The notes beneath the pieces are model-generated. The model ran no database searches. It was given only the letters and a program-made list of their open reading frames with translations, and had not been told where the DNA came from. The translations under genes were made by a program, and so were the position numbers. Of a stretch of 64,000 nucleotides of DNA, positions 56,267-62,973 are shown one piece after another; within the stretch, counting starts at the first letter, position 1, and each line of letters begins with the position of its first letter. This stretch comes from Thermosulfuriphilus ammonigenes (GTDB taxonomy: Bacteria; Desulfobacterota; Thermodesulfobacteria; Thermodesulfobacteriales; ST65), in NCBI RefSeq assembly GCF_011207455.1, contig NZ_CP048877.1, positions 736,576 to 800,575 on the forward strand, given 5' to 3'.

Positions 56267-56569
56267 ATGTCCAAGGTCGTCTCTATCACGGATAAAGAAA
56301 GGGCGCGTCGAGGCCGTGTGCGCCGCCTGGAGCAGATCAAGGAAGAGTTGCTCCGCTTCCACGGGATAGATCTCGATAAACTCCTTTCTGAAGAACCAGC
56401 TCAGAGCCTCACCGTTGAGCAATTTGAGGATCTCACCGAACGCATCCTGATGACCATCGATGAATTCTGTGAAGAATTCCCTCAGGCCACCGTCCATGAT
56501 GTTCTCTACACCCTGGAAAATGTAAAAGAGATCATCCGAGACAATTCCGTAGAGTTTGACTCCGAGTAA
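56267..56569 (+). CDS. Uncharacterised acidic helical protein (100 aa)
   Basis: 100 residues. It starts SKVVSITDKERARRGRVRRL and is mostly helical and acidic, with two blocks, LTVEQFEDLTERILMTIDEF and FPQATVHDVLYTLENVKEII. No signal peptide, metal site or recognised domain. A TTTAGGG stretch precedes ATG as a fair ribosome site. It may be in the hemW transcript. Convergent with the SDR gene, 5 bases apart. Confidence 0.75.
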   Translation: MSKVVSITDKERARRGRVRRLEQIKEELLRFHGIDLDKLLSEEPAQSLTVEQFEDLTERILMTIDEFCEEFPQATVHDVLYTLENVKEIIRDNSVEFDSE

Positions 56570-56574
56570 CGCGG

Positions 56575-57468
56575 TTATTTGCCAAGGTAGCGGGCGATTC
56601 CCTCCCGGAAATCCACCCTAGGAAGGTCAAAGGTCTGATAGAAAACCTCCGTATTCTGGCAGACATTCTCCTCAAGGAGCATGGTTATCTGATCCGTTGT
56701 CAGGGGGAAAAAGGCAAAGCCTCCCAGAAGGGAGGCCGCAAGGCGCATCAGGGATACAGGTAAATGGATGAGGACCACTCGCCGAGAAAGGGCTTGGGCC
56801 ACAGCCCTGACGATTTCGTTGTAGGTAAGAGGGCTTGGGCCACAGACTTCAAAGGTTTTACCTATTGTCTCGGGCAGATTAAGGGCCTTAACAAAGGCCT
56901 GGGCCACCACCTCCACGGCTACCGGCTGAAGTCGATAGTTCCCATCGCCAATAACCGGCAAAAAGGGACTTTTGCGGATCAGATCAGCCAAAAGATTGAC
57001 AAAAGAATCTTCTGGCCCGAAGATTACCGAGGGGCGAAAAATGGTCCAGTCAAGCCCGGAGTCTCTTACTATCTCTTCCGCAGCCCATTTACTTTGATGA
57101 TAGGCCGAAGTGGCTCCAGGCCTTGTCCCCAGGGAGGCCATGTGAAGATACCTCTGAATACCGGCTTCCTTGGCAGCAGCTACAATATTTCTGGTAGCCT
57201 GAGGGTGCAGTCTTTCAAAGGTGATCCCTTTTCGGGGAAATTCCCGGATGATACCCACCAGATGAATCACGGCTTGGCACCCGGCCATCTTAAGGGCCAA
57301 AACGGACGAATCCTCCAGAACGTCTCCAGAGACGATCTCCACCCCTGGAGGCACTTTAGCCTCTGAACCAGCTCGGACTAGAGCCACCGCTTGATGTCCA
57401 GAGCTTTTTAGGATTCTAAGAAGGGTCCGGCCGACAAATCCTGTACCCCCGGTCACGAAGACTTTCAC
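56575..57468 (-). CDS. NAD(P)-binding atypical SDR protein (NDUFA9-like / complex I 39-kDa-like)
   Basis: 297 residues. Rossmann nucleotide-binding motif GGTGFVGRTL (7-16) and a second block IFRPSVIFGPEDSFVN with YHQSKWAAEE (Y-x3-K) place it in the extended/atypical SDR group often annotated as NDUFA9-like or UbiH-associated sugar epimerase-like. The C-terminal part (FFPLTTDQITMLLEENVC) is typical of that subgroup. Start is GTG, overlapping the end of the THEP1-Tmk gene as GTGA. Substrate unknown. Third gene of the smr operon. Confidence 0.85.
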   Translation of the reverse strand: MKVFVTGGTGFVGRTLLRILKSSGHQAVALVRAGSEAKVPPGVEIVSGDVLEDSSVLALKMAGCQAVIHLVGIIREFPRKGITFERLHPQATRNIVAAAKEAGIQRYLHMASLGTRPGATSAYHQSKWAAEEIVRDSGLDWTIFRPSVIFGPEDSFVNLLADLIRKSPFLPVIGDGNYRLQPVAVEVVAQAFVKALNLPETIGKTFEVCGPSPLTYNEIVRAVAQALSRRVVLIHLPVSLMRLAASLLGGFAFFPLTTDQITMLLEENVCQNTEVFYQTFDLPRVDFREGIARYLGK

Positions 57469-58580
57469 AGAATTCCTCCTGCTTTTAGCTCTGCCAGCAC
57501 CCGGGCCAAAAGCTCATCTGGTGATTGGCTAGCCGCTAAGTGAACAATATAGTCACCTTTTATTCGAGAAAAGATTCTTTCCACCTGATGGAGAAAGCCC
57601 TGATCTTTTTCAAAGCTCTCCAGGCGTTGCCGGTGCCTTATTCTTAAGGGAACCTTTTCTAAAGGCAGGTGAAGGACAAAGACCAAATCCGGACAGGGGG
57701 CGATGGCCTGGTTGATGAGGGTCAGGTCTTCAAGGCTGAATCCCTGGGCCCCCTGATAGGCCAAGGTAGAAAAGTAGTAACGGTCGGTAATAACTATCTT
57801 TCCGGCCCAAAGGGCCGGCAGGATGGTCTCTTTCACATGTTCTTGGCGATCTTTGAGGAAAAGAAAAAGCAGCTCCTCCGCCGAAGCCCTGCCCTCGCCC
57901 AGGAGTTGTCTAAGCTTCTGACCATATATTCCGGTGGTAGGCTCTTGAGTGAGAACAACATCCTTCCCTCTGGCGATCAGATGTTCCGCCAGGGCCCGGG
58001 CCAAAGTAGTTTTACCAGAACCATCTATTCCCTCCAGGGCCACCAGGACTCCTGGCCGCTCAAACTCGGCCACCAGCCTTTGGGGAAGCCCATCTCGAGT
58101 GAACTCATCTACCAGCAGGTAAAGGCTCTGCGGAAGTTGACGCCAGGCCTTAAGAAGGGAGAGCCTGCCCTGCCCCAAAGTGGCAAGCAAGGGGCGGTTA
58201 GAGGCCAAAATAGCCTCTACCGCCCCGATGAACTCCCGACTTTTAAGCTCCATCTTCCCTAGTTCATCAATTACCAAAAGGGCTTTGACTGGAGCTTGTC
58301 TTAAAAGGGGAGCGACTACCTCGTTGAGGGCAGAGATATCGACTCCATAGGGGCCAACCTTGGGCCCCGGAGCCCCCCGGCGGGCCAAAGGAACTCGCTG
58401 CCCCTCCGTGGTGACAACATCAAATCCTAACCGTCTCCCCGACTCACAGACCTCTTCGGTATAAAACCCCCAGAGTCTGCCCGGATAAAGGTGCAGGAAG
58501 GATTTTATAACCGTGGTCTTTCCAGAACGGGGGCGTCCCAACAGAAAGACTCGACGGAGGCCATGGCGGGGCAGTCTCAA
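57465..58580 (-). CDS. tmk: Fusion of THEP1-type NTPase and thymidylate kinase
   Basis: 371 residues with two P-loops. The N-terminal half (about 8-165) resembles THEP1 (NTPase_1): Walker A GRPRSGKT (15-22), GFYTEEVCESGRRLGFDV and Walker B LLVIDELGKMELKS (101-114). The C-terminal half (about 177-371) is thymidylate kinase: VLVALEGIDGSGKTTLARAL (Walker A 184-191), TQEPTTGIYGQKLRQLL, and the catalytic DRYYFSTLAYQGA. dTMP kinase is essential, so this is probably the cell's Tmk. The joining of the two modules in one chain with no gap is unusual. Start is TTG, overlapping smr as TTGA. Confidence 0.9.
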   Translation of the reverse strand: MRLPRHGLRRVFLLGRPRSGKTTVIKSFLHLYPGRLWGFYTEEVCESGRRLGFDVVTTEGQRVPLARRGAPGPKVGPYGVDISALNEVVAPLLRQAPVKALLVIDELGKMELKSREFIGAVEAILASNRPLLATLGQGRLSLLKAWRQLPQSLYLLVDEFTRDGLPQRLVAEFERPGVLVALEGIDGSGKTTLARALAEHLIARGKDVVLTQEPTTGIYGQKLRQLLGEGRASAEELLFLFLKDRQEHVKETILPALWAGKIVITDRYYFSTLAYQGAQGFSLEDLTLINQAIAPCPDLVFVLHLPLEKVPLRIRHRQRLESFEKDQGFLHQVERIFSRIKGDYIVHLAASQSPDELLARVLAELKAGGIL

Positions 58581-59239
58581 CGTCTCCTCCGCCGCCGGTG
58601 TTTCTTTCCCGCGGGCCTTTGCCTCAAAAGCACATAGGTGGCCCCAGGACCACCGTCATAAGGAGGAGCACTAGCAAAGGCCACGACATAACGACGCCAG
58701 AAACTTCGGCTGAGCCACCTTTGAACCAGACCCTTCAGAACAGGTCCTCGAGGAGAAGAGAGGCCACGGCCGTGGATAATGAGGATACAATGGCATCCGG
58801 CCGCCACGGACTCCCGAAGGAATGTCTCCAGAGCCGCCTGGGCTTGATCTACCGAGAGGCCATGGAGATCAAGATGCCGCTGAGGAGAAACCAAACCCTC
58901 CCGAAGATAAGTAAGAATAAGGGGGTTGGTGCCACAAACCAGCTCCTCCATATATTCTGGAAGATCCTCCACCCTGAGGGAAACATCTGAAAGGTTAAGC
59001 TCTTTGCAAGAATCATCCTTTCTTTTCAGAGCCAGAGAGCTGCCAAAGGGCCAGCCCACAATCCGCCGGTGCCCCGAAAGCGGCTTTACCCCGGCCATGG
59101 CGGCCTTAAAGCAGGCCTCATCTTCAGCCTCATCTCGAGCCGGTTCTGGAAGAAGGCGGTCCAAAGAGGGCAGAGAATCTTTATCCACCAAATCCTTCAA
59201 GGCCGAGAAAGGAGAAAAAAGAGGCTTTTTTTCTGACAT
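58577..59239 (-). CDS. Smr-domain (MutS2 C-terminal-like) protein
   Basis: 220 residues. A low-complexity, charged N-terminus (1-110) is followed by an Smr domain (about 120-205) with DLHGLSVDQAQAAL, the catalytic-type HGRGLSSPRGPVLK (H-G-[RK]-G motif) and YVVAFASAPPYDGGPGATYVLL. Stand-alone Smr proteins are DNA or RNA endonucleases implicated in recombination control or ribosome rescue. The C-terminus is a basic tail (GKKHRRRRRR). First gene of a three-gene operon with overlapping starts (TTGA and GTGA). A promoter lies at 59266-59294. Confidence 0.88.
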   Translation of the reverse strand: MSEKKPLFSPFSALKDLVDKDSLPSLDRLLPEPARDEAEDEACFKAAMAGVKPLSGHRRIVGWPFGSSLALKRKDDSCKELNLSDVSLRVEDLPEYMEELVCGTNPLILTYLREGLVSPQRHLDLHGLSVDQAQAALETFLRESVAAGCHCILIIHGRGLSSPRGPVLKGLVQRWLSRSFWRRYVVAFASAPPYDGGPGATYVLLRQRPAGKKHRRRRRR

Positions 59240-59423: not shown

Positions 59424-59840
59424 CTACTTCTTTACTTTTTGCTTCGCGTGCGCGTGAGCGCGGTACGGCATAGAATAGTAAGGCTCTTTTAGCTCAAAAG
59501 CACTTCTTTGGATCTCTTCCCTGGTGAGGACTACCGGAAGCCTCCGTCTCTCCCTGGCCTTGACGGCCTCAATGTAGGGACCTACTTCCCGCTCAAGCCC
59601 TTTTAAGAAGAAAACCAGGGCGTTTAGGGCCTGATTCTGTGTGGAGGGCGCCACGTGTCTTTCCACGGCAAGATGGGTGAGAAAGTCCTGAAAGTCTTCT
59701 CCGGTAAGGGCTTCCGGGGGCTTAAATTCGGTGAACTCCCCAAAACGGCGCACCCAGCCTAGATAAGTCTTTTCCGTTCGGTAAGAATAGTGTGCCTCCG
59801 CCGGAAGACTTTTTGGGGCTTTTCGAGCAATTCTTGCCAA
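59424..59840 (-). pseudogene. intI: Truncated integron integrase (IntI) remnant
   Basis: 138 residues from TTG 59840. Residues about 10-112 match the N-terminal SAM-like domain of integron integrases very closely: HYSYRTEKTYLGWVRRF, FLTHLAVERHVAPSTQNQAL, RRLPVVLTREEI. IntI proteins are about 320-340 aa; here the similarity stops after LTREEI and about 26 unrelated residues (ending HAHAKQKVKK) follow. The whole catalytic half with the R-H-R-Y residues and the IntI-specific additional domain is missing, so it cannot recombine. Its position (divergent from attC-bearing cassettes to the right) is the standard integron layout. A GGCGGAGG ribosome site remains. Confidence 0.9.
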
Positions 59841-60408: not shown

Positions 60409-61134
60409 ATGCGATTTTCACGACGAACACTTGCTGAACTTTCTCGTTCATTGGCAAATGTTCAGGCAAAAGAGGACATTAGGACTCTAGCATACGAAAT
60501 CAATATTGAAAATGAAATTAGTGGTACCACACTTAAGGAATTAGCCGGTAGTCTTATACGTTTAGCGGAACAATTGAGGCCTGAAGAAGAAGCTGAAGAA
60601 GCAATCTTACGGATCATTGAATATGTGTTTAGACATACATTTATTGACTCGGAATCTCCTTTAGCATTTTCACTAAAAATAGATGGTTTCGAATGGGATG
60701 GTTCAAAATTGATACCCACTACACCATCCCCCGCTACTCTTGGCCGAGAAATTACAACATTGGAGGCAAGAATAGATGAGTTTGGGTTTGATGTAGCAAG
60801 GCGACATTATGATCAATGCTATGAATCATTTGTAGCTGGACGGTGGGAGGCCTGTAATGGACAACTAAGATCATTCATGGAGGACTTTTTAATTCAACTC
60901 GGGAAATCCCAGAGTGGACAGCTTCGGTCTGATCCAAACGCTGCATTAACTGATTTGCGGGGTAACTTACTAGATGACAAAGAATGGAATTTAGGACGTT
61001 CGATATGGGCGATACTTCATGAAAGTGGCGCACATGCAGGAATTAGTGACTACGATGAATCTCTATTTCGGCTTCATATAGTAACATCGTATGCACAGTA
61101 TTTGCTCAACAAGGTTAAGAAAAAGAAATCTTAA
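60409..61134 (+). CDS. Integron cassette 1: Abi_C-like protein, possible phage-defence factor
   Basis: 241 residues. An N-terminal helical region (1-70) precedes a middle domain and a C-terminal helical part with DQCYESFVAGRWEACNGQLRSFMEDF (key residues in a HEPN-like helix pair) and LHESGAHAGISDYDESLFRL, which resembles the G-x-H-x-G-x-S-D end of the abortive-infection C-terminal domain (Abi_C). That similarity is from memory and moderate. The gene starts 15 bases after the GTTAGAC core and ends 6 bases before attC1, the compact organisation of a cassette. AT-rich codon use is unlike the upstream chromosome. Confidence 0.75.
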   Translation: MRFSRRTLAELSRSLANVQAKEDIRTLAYEINIENEISGTTLKELAGSLIRLAEQLRPEEEAEEAILRIIEYVFRHTFIDSESPLAFSLKIDGFEWDGSKLIPTTPSPATLGREITTLEARIDEFGFDVARRHYDQCYESFVAGRWEACNGQLRSFMEDFLIQLGKSQSGQLRSDPNAALTDLRGNLLDDKEWNLGRSIWAILHESGAHAGISDYDESLFRLHIVTSYAQYLLNKVKKKKS

Positions 61135-61140
61135 GTTGTC

Positions 61141-61212
61141 GTCTAACAAGGCGCTGCACCGGACGGCAATTCCGCTGCGCTCCATTGCCGCCGGTGAGCT
61201 TGGACGTTAGAA
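61141..61212 (+). repeat. attC site 1 (59-base element)
   Basis: R'' GTCTAAC (61141-61147) and R' GTTAGAA (61206-61212) bracket an imperfect palindrome: AAG-gcg-CT-g-CACCGG-a-CGGCAA pairs with TTGCCGCCGGTGAGCTT, the lower-case bases being extrahelical, as is characteristic of attC bottom-strand folding. The last base of R' deviates from GTTRRRY. It separates cassettes 1 and 2. Confidence 0.88.
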
Positions 61213-61214
61213 TA

Positions 61215-62018
61215 ATGAACAAGGCTATTAGTGGACTTTTATTGATAGTCCTTTTTGTAATACCAGGCTATTTTGCTTTTATTCGCAAAAGAATTATAGA
61301 TGAAGTATCGAAAAAAATACTTATATATTTAGCATCTGAATGTGCTTTTGCTCCGAAAAAGTGGAATTCTGTTTTATATCAACTTAAAAACAGAGGAAGA
61401 ATAAAAATTCCTTTAAGTGTTACATTAAACGGAATGTTAAAACCAATTTTAGACGATTTTAGTTCTATTGTAACAATATGGTTTGCTTTGTTAATTCTAA
61501 TTGCAATTATAGGAGCTTATCTAGAAATATCGTTGACAAATACATTATTATTTTTTAATATGTTAGTAATAATAGCAAGTTTATTTTTATTTTATTGTCG
61601 TTCTGTAACTTATGATCTTAAAGAAATAGAAGAGAAGGTAAATATTGCTTCAACATTACTTTTTACTTTTGAATGGTGGAAAGATATTAATCTTGAAATG
61701 ATTGATATTTTGTACAACGAAATAAAATTGGACTTTGATTTATATAAAAAAGAAACAGAAATTGGCAGTTTATTTCTTTTGATTGGTTCTTCTGTAACCA
61801 TTTATCTAGGCAAACAAGCTTCATTGTTTTCAGGCTCCATATCTATTCTTTTATTTTTGGCAGTATTAACAATTACAATAACAAAATGGTTATATGAAGC
61901 GTATCGTACAAAAATTATTCGGATAAGTTTAGGTGCTCTTCTAGAAATAAAAAAGATACTTCTAACAAACCGCTTCAGCGGACACGCTATACAGCGGGCC
62001 GCTGAGTTTGAGCGTTAG
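61215..62018 (+). CDS. Integron cassette 2: multi-pass membrane protein of unknown function
   Basis: 267 residues from ATG 61215, three bases after attC1. About five hydrophobic helices: 4-23, 83-103, 107-127, 183-199 and 207-224, with a soluble stretch (about 130-182) between. LLLIVLFVIPGYFAFIRKR at the N-terminus vaguely recalls membrane proteins of the DUF6338 kind, without confidence. The stop TAG is inside the R' core of attC2, so the last 19 residues (TNRFSGHAIQRAAEFER end) are encoded by the recombination site itself. No ribosome site is evident; the AATA leader is typical of cassettes. Confidence 0.75.
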   Translation: MNKAISGLLLIVLFVIPGYFAFIRKRIIDEVSKKILIYLASECAFAPKKWNSVLYQLKNRGRIKIPLSVTLNGMLKPILDDFSSIVTIWFALLILIAIIGAYLEISLTNTLLFFNMLVIIASLFLFYCRSVTYDLKEIEEKVNIASTLLFTFEWWKDINLEMIDILYNEIKLDFDLYKKETEIGSLFLLIGSSVTIYLGKQASLFSGSISILLFLAVLTITITKWLYEAYRTKIIRISLGALLEIKKILLTNRFSGHAIQRAAEFER

Positions 62019-62020
62019 GA
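61960..62020 (+). repeat. attC site 2
   Basis: R'' TTCTAAC (61960-61966), R' GTTAGGA (62014-62020). The arms AAAC-cgct-TCAGCGG and CCGCTGAGTTT pair with four extrahelical bases. Loop bases ACACGCTATACAG separate the arms. It contains the end of cassette 2's reading frame. Confidence 0.87.
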
Positions 62021-62028
62021 GGAAAATT

Positions 62029-62973
62029 GTGGGACAAATAGGATCTATTGCACATCATTTTCACCAGGGAGCAAGGTCAGAATATTTAGCTCAGTATGTG
62101 TTATCTGCTTTTGGAATCGCAATTCCAGTACCAAGACCAGAAGATGCCGGAATTGACTTATATTGTGCTATTGGAGAAGAAGTTGGGAAACGATTATTGA
62201 TAGAAAATTATTTTGTCGTACAAGTTAAAAGCAACAAAAATGATATAATACATGAACCAGAAGAAAGCGTAAAGTGGATTTTGTCTCAAAAATATCCCTT
62301 TATCATTTGTGTAGTAAATAAATATGAAGGAATAATAGAACTTTACCAAACATTACAATTAGCAAAATTCTTTCCCGAAGAAGATATTAAAAGACTAATT
62401 TTTAGTTTTTCTCCTTCAAAAGAAGGAAATTTTGTTGAACAGGAAGAAGATAAAAAGGAAGTTAAAATATTATTAGATCGCCCTATTTTGAAGATAAAGA
62501 TACCAGATATTGATAAAAAGGAAATATTGTCTCAATATAAAAGAATTCTCAAATCTTGGATTGAATTGGACCAGGAAAATATTGATAGAAAAAATGCCGG
62601 AATAAATGTTGTGATTTTTCCACCTAAAATTATTACAAATTCTGAGATTGTTCAAGAAAGAAAGTTGGAAGGTAACTTTTTTAAACATAAGCTTAATCAA
62701 ATAATTGCAAATAAATATTATGAAAACCTGTTTTTCTTTTTAGCTCATGAAATTCATAATGCAGTTGCACAAGAAGATCAGGATCGATTTGTAGCTATTT
62801 CTGATCTTTGTTGGGAACTTATTAAAGTTTTATCTTTGAAAGATAATTATGGAATTCGGATGTTGCAAGTTGCTATTAATAAAGGTTCTGAAAAATTATG
62901 CTGTGATAGACATTTAAATTTATATATAAATGGTAAATTAATCCGAACTAATGGTGTCAAAATAGTCAAATAA
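62029..62973 (+). CDS. Integron cassette 3: DUF4365-like putative PD-(D/E)xK nuclease
   Basis: 314 residues from GTG 62029, chosen because AGGAGG (62017-62022) lies six bases upstream. The N-terminal domain resembles DUF4365: GARSEYLAQYVLSAFGI with E18, EDAGIDLYCA with D43 and FVVQVKSNK with Q65-x-K67, i.e. a likely E-D-QxK nuclease core. The C-terminal 200 residues (helical, LKSWIELDQENIDRKNAGIN) are unrecognised. DUF4365-like proteins often occur in defence islands and integron cassettes, so an anti-phage or anti-plasmid role is plausible but inferred. Very AT-rich codon use. Confidence 0.8.
   Translation: MGQIGSIAHHFHQGARSEYLAQYVLSAFGIAIPVPRPEDAGIDLYCAIGEEVGKRLLIENYFVVQVKSNKNDIIHEPEESVKWILSQKYPFIICVVNKYEGIIELYQTLQLAKFFPEEDIKRLIFSFSPSKEGNFVEQEEDKKEVKILLDRPILKIKIPDIDKKEILSQYKRILKSWIELDQENIDRKNAGINVVIFPPKIITNSEIVQERKLEGNFFKHKLNQIIANKYYENLFFFLAHEIHNAVAQEDQDRFVAISDLCWELIKVLSLKDNYGIRMLQVAINKGSEKLCCDRHLNLYINGKLIRTNGVKIVK

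Follow-up and report, generated by a model that had tools for sequence, protein, structure and literature searches.

THEP1 proteins are found in thermophiles, archaea and animals. Described members are aaTHEP1 from Aquifex aeolicus (structure 1YE8; COG1618, PF03266) and human NTPCR, also called HCR-NTPase (structure 2I3B), whose chains are 178 and 189 residues long, respectively. In two papers of 2005 and 2009, the in vivo function of the family is stated as unknown (PMC1079890, PMC2700126), the turnover of aaTHEP1 with ATP and GTP is 5-9 x 10^-3 per second (PMC1079890), and aaTHEP1 and the human protein process about 20-30 molecules per hour (PMC2700126). The same papers describe one conserved cleft in aaTHEP1 in which basic residues lie next to the expected position of the gamma-phosphate (PMC1079890), name E107 of aaTHEP1 (PMC1079890) and likewise E114 of the human protein (PMC2700126) as catalytic glutamates, and suggest a link to tRNA modification from gene order in four archaea (PMC1079890, 2005). 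The second family of interest is bacterial thymidylate kinase, Tmk (PF02223, TIGR00041), which phosphorylates deoxythymidine monophosphate (dTMP); the solved thymidylate kinases listed in our search are chains of 194-252 residues, the nearest being 2pbr_A. In this study, a gene of Thermosulfuriphilus ammonigenes (contig NZ_CP048877.1, order Thermodesulfobacteriales) in which these two families are joined head to tail was analyzed within a window of 64,000 nucleotides, by which the whole stretch of DNA is meant, and its occurrence, origin and possible function were considered.

The fused chain and its active sites

The gene and its parts are as follows, in positions of the window and residues of the fused protein.

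57465..58580, minus strand: fused THEP1-type nucleoside triphosphatase (NTPase) and dTMP kinase gene, 371 amino acids (aa), TTG start, TGA stop; from the open reading frame (ORF), Pfam and NCBIfam
58062..58580, minus strand: THEP1 half, residues 1-173; PF03266 at 10-169; predicted structure like 1YE8 and 2I3B
58515..58538, minus strand: THEP1 Walker A, residues 15-22; G15, P17, G20, K21 and T22 (also T23) invariant in 26 fusions
58248..58280, minus strand: THEP1 Walker B, residues 101-111; D105, E106, G108, M110 and E111 conserved; from alignment to 1YE8
58050..58061, minus strand: junction, residues 174-177, linking the final helix of THEP1 to the first strand of Tmk
57468..58049, minus strand: dTMP kinase half, residues 178-371; PF02223, TIGR00041
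58008..58034, minus strand: Tmk P-loop, residues 183-191; E183, G184, D186, G187, G189 and K190 in 26/26
57774..57785, minus strand: Tmk DRY(Y) motif, residues 266-269; D266, R267 and Y268 in 26/26

This gene almost certainly encodes one chain that contains a complete THEP1-type NTPase and a complete dTMP kinase and is present as a single copy in the genome. NTPase_1 (PF03266) matches residues 10-169 with an E-value of 1e-35 (123.5 bits against a cut-off of 23.9; profile positions 1-167 of 168), and Thymidylate_kin (PF02223) matches residues 182-357 over nearly its whole profile with an E-value of 3.4e-39 (134.9 bits against a cut-off of 27). The NCBIfam dTMP kinase model TIGR00041 is passed at 136.4 bits (cut-off 83.25). 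The NCBIfam NTPase model NF010248 gives 129.2 bits, below its cut-off of 156, and the N-terminal half is therefore placed in the THEP1 family (COG1618, ASCE-type NTPases) as a domain outside that narrower equivalog. The TTG start is supported by an ATG at the aligned position in the open frames of most relatives from the order, a support that is partly our own choice, the frames having been trimmed at the aligned ATG for the 26-row alignment.

When a profile of the family was compared with solved structures, the C-terminal part matched thymidylate kinases (best 2pbr_A, E 5.4e-42), which cover only that part, and the N-terminal part matched 1YE8 (E 8e-38) and 2I3B (E 5.1e-37); apart from the THEP1 structures, midasin was matched over short P-loop stretches, at about 9e-6. 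aaTHEP1 and human NTPCR share the predicted fold, the Walker A and the DExGKME motif of the N-terminal half, whereas here the same domain is joined to a dTMP kinase. An AlphaFold2 model of residues 1-174, made with three sequences (mean predicted local distance difference test score, pLDDT, 83.6), had 1YE8 as its first match (template modelling score, TM, 0.86; root-mean-square deviation 1.7) and superposed on 2I3B with a TM of 0.80; the structure search gave no further chain at E 0.001. From this model, the THEP1 half is predicted to adopt the modified RecA fold of 1YE8.

The residues expected for catalysis are retained. Ten positions that are the same in 52/52 unfused THEP1 rows (one of which is a duplicate, L140/L250), namely G38, R50, G52, Y78, D105, E106, G108, M110, E111 and F117, are kept in 21/21 fused rows, as are the Walker A residues. 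In the alignment to 1YE8, D105 and E106 correspond to D106 and E107 of aaTHEP1. Walker A, Walker B with its putative catalytic glutamate and the family motifs of THEP1/COG1618 are all present in the N-terminal half, as read from the sequence. The key residues of bacterial Tmk are common to the C-terminal half, in which E183, G184, D186, G187, G189, K190, E213, P214, D244, R245, D266, R267, Y268, Y275, Q276 and R313 occur in 26/26 fusions and R317 in 22/26; we take these to belong to the P-loop, the DR[YX] motif, the dTMP-binding site and the LID. The original prediction that one chain holds two complete P-loop enzymes is thus borne out by two whole Pfam domains and two intact sets of active-site residues, and we read the protein as probably bifunctional, one chain with two enzymes.

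Selection on the two halves was compared through the ratio of nonsynonymous to synonymous substitution rates (dN/dS). Six close pairs gave THEP1/Tmk values of 0.035/0.071, 0.117/0.236, 0.224/0.274, 0.057/0.158, 0.230/0.228 and 0.022/0.080, that is, ranges of 0.022-0.230 for the THEP1 half and 0.071-0.274 for the Tmk half, with the THEP1 half lower in 5/6 pairs; these are the pairs with usable dS, two of them share a genome, the last has a high dS, and a seventh pair was saturated. The mean pairwise identity over 325 pairs is 47% for the THEP1 half and 48% for the Tmk half. The THEP1 half is thus under purifying selection as strong as that on the Tmk half and, by its sequence, is alive rather than a relic.

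The host genome is a single contig of 2,287,345 bases that is rated 100% complete. Among all 31 candidates scored, PF02223 has one match, the fusion, which is therefore the only recognizable dTMP kinase of the cell; a separate second tmk as the functional enzyme, which had been named beforehand as a possible refutation, is ruled out on this count. The THEP1 family has two matches among all candidates scored, the second of which is partial and under the cut-off (20.9 bits). Since it belongs to the only tmk of a complete genome, the Tmk half would phosphorylate dTMP, and the fusion is probably essential because no other enzyme was found there to convert dTMP to dTDP. The thymidylate synthase ThyX is encoded in 19/21 genomes of the order, so the dTMP that reaches the fusion would be mostly ThyX-made. 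Of the two genomes without it, G019 is 76% complete and G006 has a partial thymidylate synthase match and possibly uses a different dTMP synthase. Partial thymidylate synthase (PF00303) matches of about 50 bits lie at G006:C1:289792-290187 and G020:C12:18504-18902, the latter in a genome that also has ThyX. PF00265, the only nucleoside kinase family searched, has no thymidine kinase match in any of 21 order genomes (0/21).

Distribution and origin of the fusion

All 41 genomes available for the host order were searched with a profile of the 26 fusions, and the fusion was found in 38/41. In 37 of these, a single match spans both halves almost completely; in the remaining one, G031, the match starts at base 2 of its contig and runs over profile positions 57-376. 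G039 has only profile positions 1-84, a contig-edge fragment beginning at base 6. Neither G028 (91% complete) nor G038 (72%) gave a fusion-profile match or a tmk match, and they therefore look like assembly gaps; G028 has one THEP1-family match of 19.7 bits, under the cut-off. THEP1 and tmk replace the fusion as separate genes in 0/41 order genomes. G037, whose contamination estimate (6) is the highest among the 41, carries an extra unfused tmk besides the fusion, and G018 has a second PF02223 match under the cut-off (20.6 bits). The matches in G025 and G022 were flagged with one internal stop each; their ORFs are open over 390 and 386 codons, and we read the flags as an effect at the edge of the match.

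Outside the order, the two families were encountered apart. A survey of 395 genomes of the host phylum comprised 17 of the host order (host included), 17/17 of which are fused, and 378 others, in which no fusion occurs among the matches listed (best 218.8 bits, against at least 449.8 bits for the fusions). The matches listed likewise include no fusion in 300 genomes from the phylum that includes G426, a Candidatus Bathyarchaeota record (best 176.9 bits), or in 148 genomes of the phylum of G421, a Nitrospiria record (best 213.7 bits). In these three surveys, 4, 6 and 13 candidates per genome were scored, respectively, on the assumption that any fusion would head the candidate and match lists. 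There was no fusion in 18 picked genomes, G421 and G426 included. A contig scan, which amounts to a sample and not a census, gave 52 tmk ORFs and no two-half ORF in the best 80 of 567 relatives. In a viral scan, none of the best 80 of 312 relatives is fused, judged by the matched query range (none before residue 138), and a viral scan with THEP1 only gave no relative. The surveys leave out Aquificota and Thermotogota.

No description of a THEP1-Tmk fusion was found in the open-licence literature, the scope of which excludes UniProt architectures and subscription papers, and no joint family model is among the 25 of 30 Pfam and the 24 NCBIfam families examined for the gene. It had been raised beforehand that the architecture might be already described and common: as surveyed, it is common inside one order only, and a description was not met with in that literature. 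The fusion is probably a new architecture of two known families.

The genes directly flanking the fusion bear on its origin.

58577..59239, minus strand: smr-domain gene, 220 aa, directly upstream; PF01713, E 2.1e-24
56575..57468, minus strand: short-chain dehydrogenase/reductase (SDR)-type NAD(P)-binding gene, 297 aa, directly downstream; PF13460/PF01370; not a conserved part

The fusion overlaps the smr gene by TTGA (58577-58580) and the SDR gene by GTGA (57465-57468), as had been noted. The smr gene lies directly upstream of the fusion in 20/20 order regions, and the SDR gene has no match in these 20 regions. Among 30 regions outside the order, selected among those unfused tmk genes of the phylum that scored better, smr also lies directly upstream of tmk in 14 (L203-L206, L208, L263, L264, L267-L269 and L271-L274), and none of the 30 contains a THEP1 match. 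These 14 pairs resemble the fused loci in the position of smr and in their Tmk, which falls in one group with the fused ones, and differ from them in that THEP1 is neither inserted between the two genes nor fused. Thirteen of the 14 genomes have a single fusion-profile match, the tmk itself, and G165 has two (four candidates scored per genome). Because smr precedes unfused tmk in the absence of THEP1, its adjacency is nothing special to the fusion. A connection to DNA repair, proposed from the gene order smr, fusion, SDR, is unsupported for the same reason and because the SDR gene is not conserved. The smr-tmk pair is in itself a conserved gene pair outside the order too.

In a Tmk tree of 73 sequences, obtained by a quick method and with several long branches among the other rows, the 21 fused sequences form one clade (Shimodaira-Hasegawa-like approximate likelihood ratio test, SH-aLRT, 94), nested in a group with the 14 smr-tmk sequences (SH-aLRT 87). 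In the THEP1 tree of 73 rows, 20/21 fused sequences are grouped (95/97) and exclude the long branch of the window's protein; a clade uniting all 21 is not rejected (approximately unbiased test, p-AU 0.344) and occurs in 30% of 200 bootstrap trees from a bootstrap that had not settled. The THEP1 tree by itself does not show a single origin of the THEP1 halves. Together with the trees, the common position after smr and the uniform length of the junction are most simply explained by a single event in which THEP1 was inserted between smr and tmk. A single origin by such an insertion in the ancestor of the order is well supported, and we infer it here. The fusion thereby marks the order in evolutionary terms, and what is likely the empty site, smr-tmk, can still be seen in relatives.

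Relation between the two halves

The junction is short and uniform. In the model of residues 1-174, the last THEP1 helix comprises residues 165-173; in a full-length model, the first strand of Tmk comprises residues 178-184. About four residues therefore join the domains. Over residues 158-190, no gap occurs in any of the 33 columns in 26 sequences, and R168, E172, R175 and G177 are invariant in the 26 fusions. R168, present in 21/21 fused rows, is not the usual residue in unfused THEP1; E172 and F173 are also conserved in the fusions, a weak comparison given that the unfused rows are clipped where these two residues fall. Since a loose tether would tolerate insertions and deletions, the gapless junction is mild evidence that its geometry matters.

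Our tentative preference is for coupling of the two halves, in which the nucleotide state of THEP1 acts on the attached Tmk. As the published turnover of THEP1 is slow, more fitting for a switch than for a bulk enzyme, the THEP1 half would be no bulk hydrolase but a slow nucleotide-state module. It would bind nucleoside triphosphate (NTP), and the NTP- or NDP-bound state would be the signal, which the last THEP1 helix and the short junction of fixed length would relay to Tmk at its first strand and P-loop. The Tmk half would convert dTMP, ThyX-made in most order genomes, to dTDP, and the outcome would be dTMP phosphorylation matched to the NTP supply. A link to nucleotide pools, as originally suggested, is supported within limits by the sole dTMP kinase, PF00265 in 0/21 genomes and ThyX in 19/21. 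More speculatively, and rather improbably, the job of THEP1 in general, human NTPCR included, might be that of a nucleotide-state sensor or partner in deoxynucleotide synthesis acting directly on a nucleoside monophosphate kinase, a transient partnership that was made permanent in this order.

Several points weigh against coupling. There is no direct sign of communication between the halves. The full-length model, built with Tmk rows only and with no aligned relatives for the THEP1 part, gives the THEP1 half mostly pLDDT <50 and does not fix the arrangement of the halves, and the invariance of the junction across 26 related sequences may partly reflect kinship. In the other lineages covered, THEP1 and Tmk are separate, and none of the matches listed are adjacent. 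Furthermore, the neighbours of unfused THEP1 genes in the phylum have no strong theme and no nucleotide-metabolism theme among 69 of 95 flanking ORFs scanned, the smaller and outer ones being left out and 5/30 regions having no THEP1 ORF. The fusion may bring co-expression only.

Coupling is in fact closely followed by a reading in which the THEP1 half is a functional bystander, inserted beside tmk and kept for co-expression and equal dose, with an unrelated function of its own, such as one in RNA metabolism, to which Tmk is indifferent. That smr precedes unfused tmk without THEP1 in the 14/30 chosen regions means that the fusion can be a one-off insertion accident, and the matches listed show no unfused THEP1 close to tmk. 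A role in RNA metabolism would also suit the tRNA-modification link proposed from the four archaea (PMC1079890) and the methyltransferase families, which are the commonest, though few (5/69), among the neighbours of unfused THEP1. However, no genome of the order has separate genes in place of the fusion, and a junction free of insertions and deletions in 26 sequences exceeds the needs of a loose tether. Removal of unwanted or heat-damaged NTPs by the THEP1 half, next to the enzyme supplying the dTTP pool, is unlikely. It would agree with an intact NTPase site under strong purifying selection and with the joining to a nucleotide enzyme, whereas clean-up enzymes usually release the monophosphate and an ASCE NTPase would release the diphosphate. 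In addition, the turnover of about 20-30 molecules per hour given in PMC2700126 is slow for such an enzyme.

Less probable still is a salvage channel, in which the THEP1 half would be a nucleoside kinase for thymidine or deoxyuridine that feeds its product to Tmk. The lack of PF00265 in 21 order genomes leaves room for such an activity, and the conserved basic cleft next to the gamma-phosphate described for aaTHEP1 (PMC1079890) could serve it, but salvage is not needed because ThyX is present in 19/21 genomes. A vestigial or purely structural THEP1 half that stabilizes Tmk at high temperature is strongly disfavoured and ranks last. It would fit with the occurrence of the fusion in one order only and with a Tmk that works alone elsewhere in the phylum; however, all residues found in 52/52 unfused THEP1 rows are kept, and dN/dS is below that of Tmk in 5/6 pairs, with 0.230 against 0.228 in the sixth.

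The value of the fusion lies mainly in the handle that it gives on an orphan NTPase family. A family that also occurs in humans is locked, across the available genomes of an order, to an enzyme with a clear and presumably essential role, which provides a testable clue to the function of THEP1, and any mutual effect of the halves can be addressed with one purified protein.

Nearby genes

Just upstream of smr, an ORF of 138 aa (59424-59840, minus strand) matches PF13495 (N-terminal SAM-like, phage integrase) at residues 16-82 (5.5e-24); it has no catalytic-domain match and looks like a truncated integrase. Downstream of the fusion and on the opposite strand, 56267-56569 (plus strand) encodes a protein of 100 aa with no Pfam match, which is conserved in 4/5 regions of family f2 (L173, L184, L185 and L192; not L174) at 51-66% identity. 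Three genes in a row occupy 60409-62973 (plus strand), of which two match no Pfam family and the third matches DUF4365 only weakly, under the cut-off; they possibly form a small acquired island beside the truncated integrase.
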